Source of the DNA: Verrucomicrobiota bacterium
GTDB lineage: Bacteria; Verrucomicrobiota; Verrucomicrobiia; Limisphaerales; J093
NCBI GenBank assembly: GCA_022710935.1
Contig: JAKLFY010000037.1
Location: 1 to 62,019 of the forward strand
Direction: 5' to 3'
Length of the DNA: 62,019 bases
Shown: piece after piece, positions 6,442-48,134 of the stretch
Layout: every line of letters begins with the position of its first letter
Numbering within the stretch: position 1 is the first letter of the stretch
Notes under the pieces: model-generated
Database searches by the model: none
What the model saw: only the letters and a program-made list of their open reading frames with translations
What the model was told of the DNA's origin: nothing
Translations under genes and position numbers: made by a program

Positions 6442-6469
6442 TGTCAACTATTTAGATTCGACCCCATTG
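6442..6469 (+). repeat. 28-bp repeat, copy 1 (mobile-element-like edge)
   Basis: This sequence, beginning TGTCAACTATTTAGAT and ending CGACCCCATTG, recurs at 60283-60310 in the same orientation with one mismatch. Here it supplies the last codons and the stop of the MFS-Ppx gene (read on the minus strand as MGSNLNS-stop). At the other site it cuts into a sigma-factor gene. This behaviour fits the boundary of an insertion sequence, but no transposase is next to either copy. Confidence 0.65.
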
Positions 6470-8648
6470 TCCTGCAAAACCGGTCGATGAGGACGCCGTG
6501 GCGCAGCCCGCGGTCGCTGACCCTCAGCCGCCCCTGGCGCAGCTTGTCCATGATAACCCGCACAACGCAGGCTCCGGCGAGAATGATGTCCGCACGCCGC
6601 GGGTCGAGGCCGGGGATCTGCCGCCGCGCCTGGGCATCCCGCGAGCGGTAGAGCTCGATCTGACGACCGATTTCGTCCCGGTCGAGCACGGTTCCCTGCA
6701 CGACATCCGGGTTGTAACGAGCCAGGCCGTGTTTGACGGCGGCGAGATTGGTCACGGCCCCCCCGATTCCGACCAGGAGGTCAGGCGCAGCCAGGCCGTC
6801 CAGGGGACTGAACTCGGCGGCGATGGCCTCGAACACGCGATCGAGATCGTCCGCGCCCACCCGTCCCCCCAGGCCCCACTGCTCGGTCAACCGGACCGCG
6901 CCGATGTTGAGACTGAATCGGGTCTCGACGGCGGTGGCGCGCCCGATTGTGAACTGGGTGCTGCCGCCGCCAGTATCGAAAATGGCCAGGCGATCGTCGT
7001 CCGAGCCGAAGCAGGCTCTGACGGCCAGGTAGCCAAGCCGGCTCTCTTCGGCGCCGTCGAGGACCTCGATCTCGACGCCGCAGCGCTGGCGCACGGCGTC
7101 GATCAACCTGTCCCGGTTGGGGGCAACGCGCAGAGCCATTGTGCCGACCGCGACGACCGACGAAACGCCAAGCCGCCGCGCCTCGGACGTCATGCCGGCG
7201 ATCGCATCCAGAGTGCGGTCGCAGGCATCAGGCGCAAGACTGCCCCCCTCGCGCAGACCTTCTCCAAGCCGCGTCACTTCAGACCGATCGACCAACGGCC
7301 GCCATCCTCCGTCCTGTTGCTTCGCCGCGACGTGAAGTTTGACCGAGTTCGTCCCGACATCGATCGCGGCATACAAGGGCATGGCGCTCTGCCGCGTCGT
7401 GGCGCCCTGGCGCAACAGGAGCGAGCCCAGGGCGCCCAGAAACGCCACGCCCGAGGCAAGCAGCATCGCCGGCGCCAGCGAACCGGCGGCATCGGCGAGG
7501 GCCCCGGCGGCACTGGGCGCCGCCGCCTGGCCAAGGCCGAAGAACAGGGTCACGAATCCCAAGCCCGCCGGTGCGAATCGTGGGCCGAGCAAATCTCCGC
7601 AGGTCGCCGCCATGATGGCCGGGATGCTCCAGGCTGACAGGCCGAACAGAGCGGCTGAGAGAGCGAGTCCGATGGGCGAGGGCCAGAGCGCGAACAGGCC
7701 GAAGGCGACGGTATGAATCAGATAGACAATGACCAGGGCGCCCTTGCGCCCGATCACGTCCGAGACCCATCCCCAAATCAATCCACAGAACAGGCCCAGC
7801 CAGCCCATGGCCATGAACAACCCGCCCGCGGCAGCCTGCGTGTAGTGGGCCTCGGCCACGAGGTATTTGGTGAAGAAGGTCATGTAGATGATGTAGGAGA
7901 AGCCGAACGCGACATAGATCAATCCGACATGCCACATAACCCCGGACCGATAGACGCTGCTCCAGTCAAGTCCGCGTGCCCCCGCGAGCGCGGGCACCTC
8001 GTCCCCTGCCGCTCCCAAGGGGCTCAGGCCGATCTCCGCTGGCCGGTTCCGCAGGGCGGCCAGGGCGAGAATGGCCAGCCCGAATGTCACGCCCGAGAAA
8101 ACGAACCAGCAGATGCGCCATCCATTCTCTTCGTTTCCGGCCAACAGGCGCGGGACCAGCGGCCCCAGCAGGATGAGCCCCAGTGAAGACCCTGTCACAC
8201 CGATCCCAGAGGCCAACCCGCGCCGACGCTGGGCGAACCAGGCGGACAGCAGTGCCATGACCGGAACGTTGCTTGCGCCGCTGCCGATGCCGGAAAGAGC
8301 CCGCCAGCCAAGTGCAGCCCCGAAACTGTCGGCGAGTCCGGTCAACAGCATGCCCAGGGCCGCCGCCGTCAACCCGGCCGCGATGACCGCGCGGGGACCG
8401 AACCGCGACGCGAGGGCGCCGCCGACCAGGGCCAGAACGAGGTAGCCGGCCAGATTGGCTGTTGCCAGGGCGCCAGCCTGGGTGTTGTTCAGGAGCAGGC
8501 CCGCCTGCATGGGCGGCAGCAGCATGGTGTAACCGAATCGGGCCAGACCCAGAGCGCCGAAGACGACCAGCGTGCCCACGGCCAGGACGATCCACGCGTA
8601 GTGAAGCCTCGAGCCGGCACGTCTCACTGCGTCGTTTGGCGAGTTCAT
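6444..8648 (-). CDS. Fused MFS transporter and Ppx/GppA phosphatase
   Basis: One uninterrupted frame of 734 codons from ATG 8648. Residues 1-422 are an MFS permease with about 12 hydrophobic segments; LARFGYTMLLPPM near the start resembles the YbfB/YjiJ branch, and GWRALSGIGSGASNVPV is the usual TM4 region. With no stop or linker the frame enters MPLYAAIDVGTNSVKL (residue 423, base 7382), the phosphate-1 motif of exopolyphosphatase/guanosine pentaphosphatases, then AIFDTGGGSTQF (phosphate 2, with Gln where the family normally has Glu) and GIGGAVTNLAAV, ending GLRHGVLIDRF. The Ppx part alone would be 312 residues, about the length of short Ppx proteins. No Shine-Dalgarno is visible before Met423, so a real fusion is more likely than reinitiation. 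The last residues come from the 28-bp repeat. Frames upstream of 8648 are antisense to the pseudopilin gene. Confidence 0.82.
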   Translation of the reverse strand: MNSPNDAVRRAGSRLHYAWIVLAVGTLVVFGALGLARFGYTMLLPPMQAGLLLNNTQAGALATANLAGYLVLALVGGALASRFGPRAVIAAGLTAAALGMLLTGLADSFGAALGWRALSGIGSGASNVPVMALLSAWFAQRRRGLASGIGVTGSSLGLILLGPLVPRLLAGNEENGWRICWFVFSGVTFGLAILALAALRNRPAEIGLSPLGAAGDEVPALAGARGLDWSSVYRSGVMWHVGLIYVAFGFSYIIYMTFFTKYLVAEAHYTQAAAGGLFMAMGWLGLFCGLIWGWVSDVIGRKGALVIVYLIHTVAFGLFALWPSPIGLALSAALFGLSAWSIPAIMAATCGDLLGPRFAPAGLGFVTLFFGLGQAAAPSAAGALADAAGSLAPAMLLASGVAFLGALGSLLLRQGATTRQSAMPLYAAIDVGTNSVKLHVAAKQQDGGWRPLVDRSEVTRLGEGLREGGSLAPDACDRTLDAIAGMTSEARRLGVSSVVAVGTMALRVAPNRDRLIDAVRQRCGVEIEVLDGAEESRLGYLAVRACFGSDDDRLAIFDTGGGSTQFTIGRATAVETRFSLNIGAVRLTEQWGLGGRVGADDLDRVFEAIAAEFSPLDGLAAPDLLVGIGGAVTNLAAVKHGLARYNPDVVQGTVLDRDEIGRQIELYRSRDAQARRQIPGLDPRRADIILAGACVVRVIMDKLRQGRLRVSDRGLRHGVLIDRFCRTMGSNLNS

Positions 8649-8864
8649 CGGTCGAATCGCATCGGGACCAGCCCCAGTCTGGCCAGTCTCTCTCGGCGGT
8701 TGCAAGGACTCTGTCGCGATCGACCCGTAAGCCCGGGCATTCCAGAAGGCTGCGCGTGATCTGATGGCCGGGCTACGGGTTTGGCGGCGAGAGAATTCCG
8801 TGCTCGCCTTTGGCGGAGACGGTGCTAAAGTCAAGCCGTCACCAACAAACCGAAGGTTTTGAGT

Positions 8865-36093: not shown

Positions 36094-36412
36094 GTGCGTC
36101 TGGTTGCCCTCGGTGTTCCGTCGCCCGGCGAGGGCACCGGGCCTGCCTCCGATGGAAACTCCCGGTGTAGGCCGCGTGCCCCCACGCGGCGCGAGGACAG
36201 ACATCGGCGCAGACGCCGGGTCAGGGGATCCGGCCTACAAAGGGGCGGACACCGATGTTGTAGGCCGCGTGCCCCCACGCGGCGCGAGGACAGACATCGG
36301 CGCAGACGCCGGGTCAGGGGACCCGGCCTACAAAGCGGCGGACACCGATGTTGTAGGCCGCGTGCCCCCACGCGGCGCAAACTCCATTCCAACCGACACA
36401 CTACGGATGCAC
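36094..36412 (+). repeat. Hairpin repeat element, locus 1 (three 93-bp-spaced units)
   Basis: A 319-bp non-coding element. It contains the palindrome GCCGCGTGCCCCCACGCGGC at 36171-36190, 36264-36283 and 36357-36376, exactly 93 bp apart, and a second hairpin GCCGGGTCAGGGGACCCGGC (36308-36327; at 36215-36234 one base differs). The left part has a variant of the CCCGGTGAGGGCACCGGG hairpin (about 36123-36141). Ends are related to the inverted ends of loci 2 and 3 but are degenerate (about 12 of 22 positions). It is one 93-bp unit longer than locus 2. Confidence 0.85.
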
Positions 36413-36487
36413 TGCTGACGAAGCTCGTACAGAAACCGTTTGACTTGGCTCGCCTTGTCGGAATAATCCGTCCAGACATTCCGACCT

Positions 36488-43602: not shown

Positions 43603-43828
43603 GTGCATCTGGTCGTTGTCGGTGTTCTGTCGCCCGGTGAGGGCACCGGGCCTACAACAGAAGGAGACTCCCGCTGCGGGCCGCGTGCCCCCACGCGGCG
43701 CAAGGACAGACATCGGCGCAGACGCCGGGCCAGGGGACCGGGCCTACAAAGGGGCGGACACCGATGTTGTTGGCCGCGTGCCCCCACGCGGCGCAGACTC
43801 CATTCCCACCGACAACCTCCAGACACAC
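43603..43828 (+). repeat. Hairpin repeat element, locus 2, with inverted ends
   Basis: A 226-bp non-coding element between divergent genes. Its ends are near-perfect inverted repeats: 43603-43624 begins GTGCATCTGG and its partner 43807-43828 reads, on the other strand, GTGTGTCTGG then GGTTGTCGGTG (18 of 22 positions match). Inside are the hairpin CCCGGTGAGGGCACCGGG (43633-43650) and two copies of GCCGCGTGCCCCCACGCGGC (43680-43699 and 43773-43792), 93 bp apart. Confidence 0.85.
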
Positions 43829-47781: not shown

Positions 47782-47965
47782 GAACTGCTTTCTAACGTGC
47801 CCACGGAGGACGGACAATTGGGGCGGTTGCTTACCGGGGATGATGGGATTGCATACGGACCGTTGCGTGCTGAGCGTTGCGTGCTCGCACGAAGACCTCA
47901 CTCGCTTCGAGAGCGAACCACTGGTGGCCCGCCTCTACTTCCCGACACCCGTCCCGCCGCGTGCA

Positions 47966-48134
47966 GTGCATCTGGAGGTTGTCGGCGGGAATCGAGTCAG
48001 CGCCGCGTGGGGGCCGCAGCCTGCTACACCGGCAATCTCCATCCGTTGCAGGCCCGGTGCCCTCACCGGGCGACAGAAGTTGTAGGCCCGGTGCCCTCAC
48101 CGGGCGACAGAACACCGACAACTACCAGATGCAC
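47966..48134 (-). repeat. Hairpin repeat element, locus 3 (opposite orientation)
   Basis: A 169-bp element, inverted relative to loci 1 and 2. Ends 47966-47987 (GTGCATCTGGAGGTTGTCGG...) and 48113-48134 match as inverted repeats at 19 of 22 positions. It has two copies of the CCCGGTGCCCTCACCGGG hairpin 34 bp apart (48053-48070 and 48087-48104) and one degenerate copy of the GCCGCGTG palindrome (near 48000-48016). It lies between divergent genes, like locus 2. Confidence 0.82.

Follow-up and report, generated by a model that had tools for sequence, protein, structure and literature searches.

The gene at 6444–8648 on the minus strand of the window (the 62,019-nucleotide stretch of contig JAKLFY010000037.1, from a Verrucomicrobiota bacterium of the order Limisphaerales, that was analysed here) joins an MFS permease in frame to a Ppx/GppA phosphatase domain, and comparison with a second species of the genus indicates that this fusion is real and evolutionarily maintained. 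The product is predicted to be a single membrane protein, in which a 12-helix MFS permease bears at its C terminus a short exopolyphosphatase-type phosphohydrolase of the ASKHA fold. From the sequence comparisons described below, we infer as reasonably probable a horizontally acquired, membrane-tethered exopolyphosphatase whose Ppx half lies in the cytoplasm and acts on polyphosphate made by PPK1, and whose permease would still transport a small organic anion.

The frame is uninterrupted from its ATG to its stop codon (734 codons; protein P0001), and its features are listed in Table 1. Ahead of this ATG (at 8648), the frame stays open for a further 307 codons, up to 9569. Translation nevertheless likely starts at 8648, because homology with the congener does not extend past 8712 and the N termini of the MFS relatives align close to residue 1. 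In Pfam searches, MFS_1 was found at residues 29–354 (1e-43; PF07690, 149.8 bits against a cut-off of 33.4), MFS_4 at residues 32–407 (7e-35), and Ppx-GppA at residues 442–722 (6e-51; PF02541, 174 bits against a cut-off of 27), the last covering positions 3–280 of the 285 of the profile. Since these matches span nearly the whole profiles, both parts are considered complete, in agreement with the original prediction. The PF07690 match, the 12 helices predicted from hydropathy and from the AlphaFold model, and motif A-like loops at residues 77–86 and 296–304 assign the permease half to the MFS, and through this half the earlier view of a membrane-bound protein is supported. In the AlphaFold model, the first strand of the Ppx fold starts at residue 425; helix 12 of the permease lies at residues 392–410. 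The permease had been described as residues 1–422 running into the phosphatase with neither a stop nor a linker. The absence of a stop holds and the boundary sits at Met423, but the permease itself ends at about residue 413 and is followed by a short linker (pLDDT <50), which is probably its former C-terminal tail. In the usual MFS topology, the C terminus is inside. The motif A-like loops fit this topology, in which both termini of the permease would be cytoplasmic and the Ppx half would lie on the cytoplasmic face of the membrane.

Table 1. Features of the fusion gene, in positions of the window.
Feature	Position	Strand	Basis or remark
Fusion gene, 734 codons + stop	6444–8648	-	One open frame; same fusion in congener
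MFS permease half, residues 1–413 (approx.), 12 predicted TM helices	7410–8648	-	MFS_1 + MFS_4, helix prediction, motifs
Linker, residues 414–422, QGATTRQSA	7383–7409	-	pLDDT <50; alignment; no interspecies indel
Ppx/GppA half, residues 423–734, short form (domains I–II only)	6447–7382	-	PF02541, TIGR03706, Aquifex aeolicus structures
Met423 ATG, presumed ancestral Ppx gene start	7380–7382	-	ATA (Ile) in congener
Phosphate-binding loop AIDVGTNSVKL, residues 428–438, with D430	7335–7367	-	D430 = D7 of DrPPX, PMC11234463
R507	7128–7130	-	= R86 of DrPPX, PMC11234463
E535	7044–7046	-	= E114 of DrPPX, PMC11234463; Glu also conserved in A. aeolicus
DTGGGSTQ loop, D558 to Q565; Gln replaces usual catalytic Glu	6954–6977	-	E143 position of DrPPX
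DNA homology block with congener, 91%	6478–8712	-	Unrelated sequence on either side

The same fusion is carried by the congener, Verrucomicrobia bacterium ADurb.Bin006 (record MWFF01000165.1), whose genome was the one other member of the genus in the comparison. The two proteins are 92% identical over residues 1–725, with no stop and no indel up to residue 724. The in-frame fusion of the original prediction is thereby confirmed, and a stop codon between the two parts, which was to be looked for in relatives, is absent from the sole close relative. Between the two species, dN/dS was found to be 0.147 for the MFS half (dS 0.22) and 0.131 for the Ppx half (dS 0.30), and purifying selection is indicated for both halves. 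The two species have none of the genes flanking the fusion in common, and a conserved neighbourhood was rejected as a functional clue on this ground. The flanking genes of the congener match other contigs of the window genome at 91–95%; thus, both contigs belong to the genus and the genomes have been rearranged. By this comparison, the MFS–Ppx joint was kept while all of its surroundings moved. Both genomes are drafts in many contigs and that of the congener is a MAG, so that two genes might have been joined artificially in assembly, binning or sequencing. However, two assemblies made independently, each with its own flanks, show the identical junction, and the flanks of the congener match the window genome at the same level as does the fusion gene itself. 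An artefact is therefore practically excluded.

The two species differ in the final ten residues of the fusion protein (window 6444–6480), which places a rearrangement breakpoint inside the 3′ end of the gene. A dispersed repeat of about 125 bases is present in at least 30 copies (about 80% alike) across the genome, including several in the window (36120–36192, 36355–36415, 43612–43703, 43772–43823 and 47963–48125); the repeat was also noted at L034:13189–13315. It may underlie the extensive rearrangement seen when the two species are compared.

Is the frame used to make one protein or two? Met423 (ATG) of the window species coincides with the position at which standalone Ppx proteins start, several unfused Ppx relatives beginning with MPRRAVIDVG or similar. 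With TTG412 and TTG425 also near the boundary, internal initiation or proteolysis could yield two proteins from this frame, and the fusion would then be only formal. In the congener, however, ATG423 is replaced by ATA and TTG425 by TCG, and no in-frame ATG, GTG or TTG occurs from codon 413 to codon 450. The only start-like codons left there are TTG412 and codons inside the last helix, all without a Shine-Dalgarno-like stretch. Because the boundary start codons have been lost, a separately started Ppx protein is unlikely in the congener, and we consider the production of two proteins very improbable. No other single sign speaks as strongly for use as a fusion as this disappearance of the internal start.

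The Ppx half shares its catalytic core, consisting of domains I–II only, with the short Ppx/GppA proteins of Aquifex aeolicus (1t6c/2j4r) and Mycobacterium tuberculosis (Rv0496). Its best NCBIfam match is the exopolyphosphatase family exo_poly_only (TIGR03706), with 213.6 bits, below the cut-off of 307. In the AlphaFold model, the Ppx half has the fold of the Aquifex aeolicus Ppx/GppA (matches to 1t6c, 1t6d and 2j4r; target TM-score 0.87 for 1t6d), in which the counterparts of D430, R507, E535 and D558 are conserved. The structure search with this half also returned NTPDases, which have the same fold. Unlike the short Ppx/GppA proteins, the fusion protein is permease-borne and contains Gln565 in place of Glu; to our knowledge, the known members, like the known bacterial exopolyphosphatases in general, are soluble enzymes. 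In the alignment with DrPPX, whose five catalytic residues are D7, R86, E114, D136 and E143, four are kept (as D430, R507, E535 and D558), whereas the E143 position is occupied by Q565. In DrPPX, the E143A substitution lowers kcat/Km from 2.28 to 0.04 (PMC11234463), and therefore the Q565 enzyme may have a lowered polyphosphate activity or may prefer a different phosphoanhydride substrate.

This replacement also bears on whether the Ppx half is an enzyme at all. It could instead be a sensor or regulator (or a nucleotide hydrolase) that binds polyphosphate or a nucleotide and gates transport, as in eukaryotic SPX-MFS proteins. Such a function would be consistent with the exchange of the catalytic Glu for Q565, which both species share with the Cupriavidus relative described below, and with the same-fold NTPDases returned by the structure search. 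Gln is usual at the matching place in NTPDases. However, the four other catalytic residues are retained, L047 and L025, which are unfused Ppx genes of the order, also have Gln at the E143 position, and no second Ppx was found in these PPK1-containing genomes. In addition, no sign of domain contact is seen in the AlphaFold model of the fusion, which has a pTM of 0.48, does not fix the placement of the domains and is of only moderate confidence in its MFS part. A sensor is thus unlikely, and an active exopolyphosphatase remains the preferred reading.

The fusion is the only PF02541 gene found in the window genome and in that of the congener, a count taken from two MAGs that are 95.7% and 94% complete, so that a second Ppx could sit in the unassembled parts. 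As the only recognisable Ppx/GppA, it is most likely the exopolyphosphatase of the genus. Each of the two genomes contains one PPK1. No match to the RelA/SpoT synthetase domain (PF04607) was obtained in the window genome, the congener and two family members, in a search in which 11 of 14 controls were positive; PVC bacteria have been reported to be without long RSHs (PMC3153485). The presence of PPK1 and the lack of a RelA/SpoT match favour polyphosphate over (p)ppGpp as the substrate pathway. The turnover of (p)ppGpp, which had been put forward as the other option, is not supported, no synthetase being detectable in these genomes. At the membrane, the Ppx half would split phosphate off the ends of the polyphosphate chains that PPK1 synthesises.

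The closest permeases, 65–77% identical to the MFS half over its whole length, come from Planctomycetota, Nitrospirota, Chloroflexota and Pseudomonadota (a MAG labelled Proteobacteria), and the permeases of its own order are only 46–55% identical. In the tree, the MFS half groups with the other phyla (support 100/100), apart from the clade of the order. Unlike the fusion protein, the related permeases (L035–L043) all stop a few residues past the last helix, with no Ppx attached. A match of the Nitrospirota permease L036 that ran into the Ppx half was found to be spurious, an extension past the stop. The nearest solved MFS structure is that of the L-lactate transporter 6g9x, and the best NCBIfam match is likewise to an L-lactate MFS type (SfMCT, NF049980), with 96.8 bits, not reaching the cut-off of 320. 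The helix 8 Arg of 6g9x is not conserved, Gly being aligned with it in the permease half. Genes neighbouring the related permeases encode DAHP synthase, a pyruvate/indolepyruvate ferredoxin oxidoreductase-like protein, aldehyde:ferredoxin oxidoreductase, acyl-CoA ligases and aminotransferases, and hint at an aromatic or 2-oxo acid as the solute. In three Nitrospirota (L036, L038 and L039), the gene for the related permease comes immediately after one for DAHP synthase, an arrangement suggesting that MFS permeases of this family carry a solute of an aromatic pathway. The permease half has most likely kept the ability to move a small organic anion; phosphate, named earlier as a possible cargo, is not supported, the nearest solved structure being a lactate transporter and relatives adjoining aromatic-acid or 2-oxoacid genes.

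The same observations bear on a true coupling of the two halves, in which the permease would move a compound made or consumed by the Ppx half. Natural LplT-Aas fusions join an MFS to an enzyme acting on its substrate (PMC11416262). However, the present permease resembles no phosphate transporter, being nearest to 6g9x among solved relatives, and its own relatives adjoin the metabolic genes listed above and never a Ppx gene within the stretches examined. Such a coupling is accordingly regarded as distinctly unlikely, and just as doubtful is the possibility that hydrolysis of polyphosphate (or of a nucleotide) at the membrane drives or gates solute transport through the MFS half. LplT-Aas (PMC11416262) and the SPX-MFS phosphate transporters (PMC4821872) also combine an MFS with a cytoplasmic domain for a phosphorus compound, but their enzyme or sensor domains are unrelated to Ppx, and the likeness is one of design only.

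Against the Ppx proteins of the order, the Ppx half reaches no more than 41% identity, and it lies outside their clade. The nearest Ppx found, with 56.5% identity across 299 residues, comes from the Cupriavidus sp. P-10 plasmid pMTS1; the Ppx half groups with it (support 100/99), outside the clades of the order, in a tree built without the long-branch cyanobacterial row that had joined the Ppx half in the first tree. A native Ppx gene of the order is ruled out by this tree as the source. The Cupriavidus Ppx (L085:7413–8903) has the same DTGGGSTQ loop and likewise forms the C-terminal portion of a longer open frame; around the Ppx boundary, between codons 213 and 244, that frame contains no start codon. 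Its N-terminal part of about 194 residues is, in contrast to that of the fusion, not a permease and gave no Pfam or PDB sequence match; the CYTH/TTM-like look of this region, noted by eye, was not confirmed in the same searches. In two genomes of the class of the Phycisphaerae MAG G325, CHAD and Ppx were found in one open frame (L081:259–3138 and L083:394–2595). CHAD, a polyphosphate-binding domain (PMC6537752), is an N-terminal module ahead of Ppx, as the permease is, but is not a membrane part. Ppx domains thus do acquire N-terminal partners, with a permease partner seen only in this genus, and the Gln-type Ppx proteins appear to form a subfamily, present in distant phyla and placed C-terminally in proteins of different make-up.

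The permease–Ppx fusion was detected in two of the 320 genomes of the order, both of this genus, in none of 101 genomes among the relatives of the Planctomycetota genome G320 and in none of 397 in the class of G325; these searches used score limits, by which fusions of distant MFS and Ppx domains would be missed, and the wide genome scan detects close relatives only. None was present in the plasmids or viral contigs searched, and no MFS–Ppx protein was found in the open-access literature. Neighbouring but separate MFS and ppx genes, as a possible ancestral state, were also sought: no Ppx gene lies beside nine MFS relatives (stretches up to 8 kb), and the Ppx genes of the order have no such MFS partner within 1.5 kb. 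The transfer of a ready-made fusion from an unsampled donor fits these data best, a possible alternative being that two imported genes were joined within the genus. The horizontal acquisition probably preceded the split of the two species.

Overall, the fusion brings two well-known families together in an uncommon combination that has been maintained and has a narrow distribution, and its parts document a Gln-type Ppx subfamily across distant phyla. A genus whose sole recognisable exopolyphosphatase-type enzyme is built into a permease would offer a natural test of whether the site of polyphosphate breakdown matters, and likewise of whether an attached phosphohydrolase can regulate or energise an MFS transporter.
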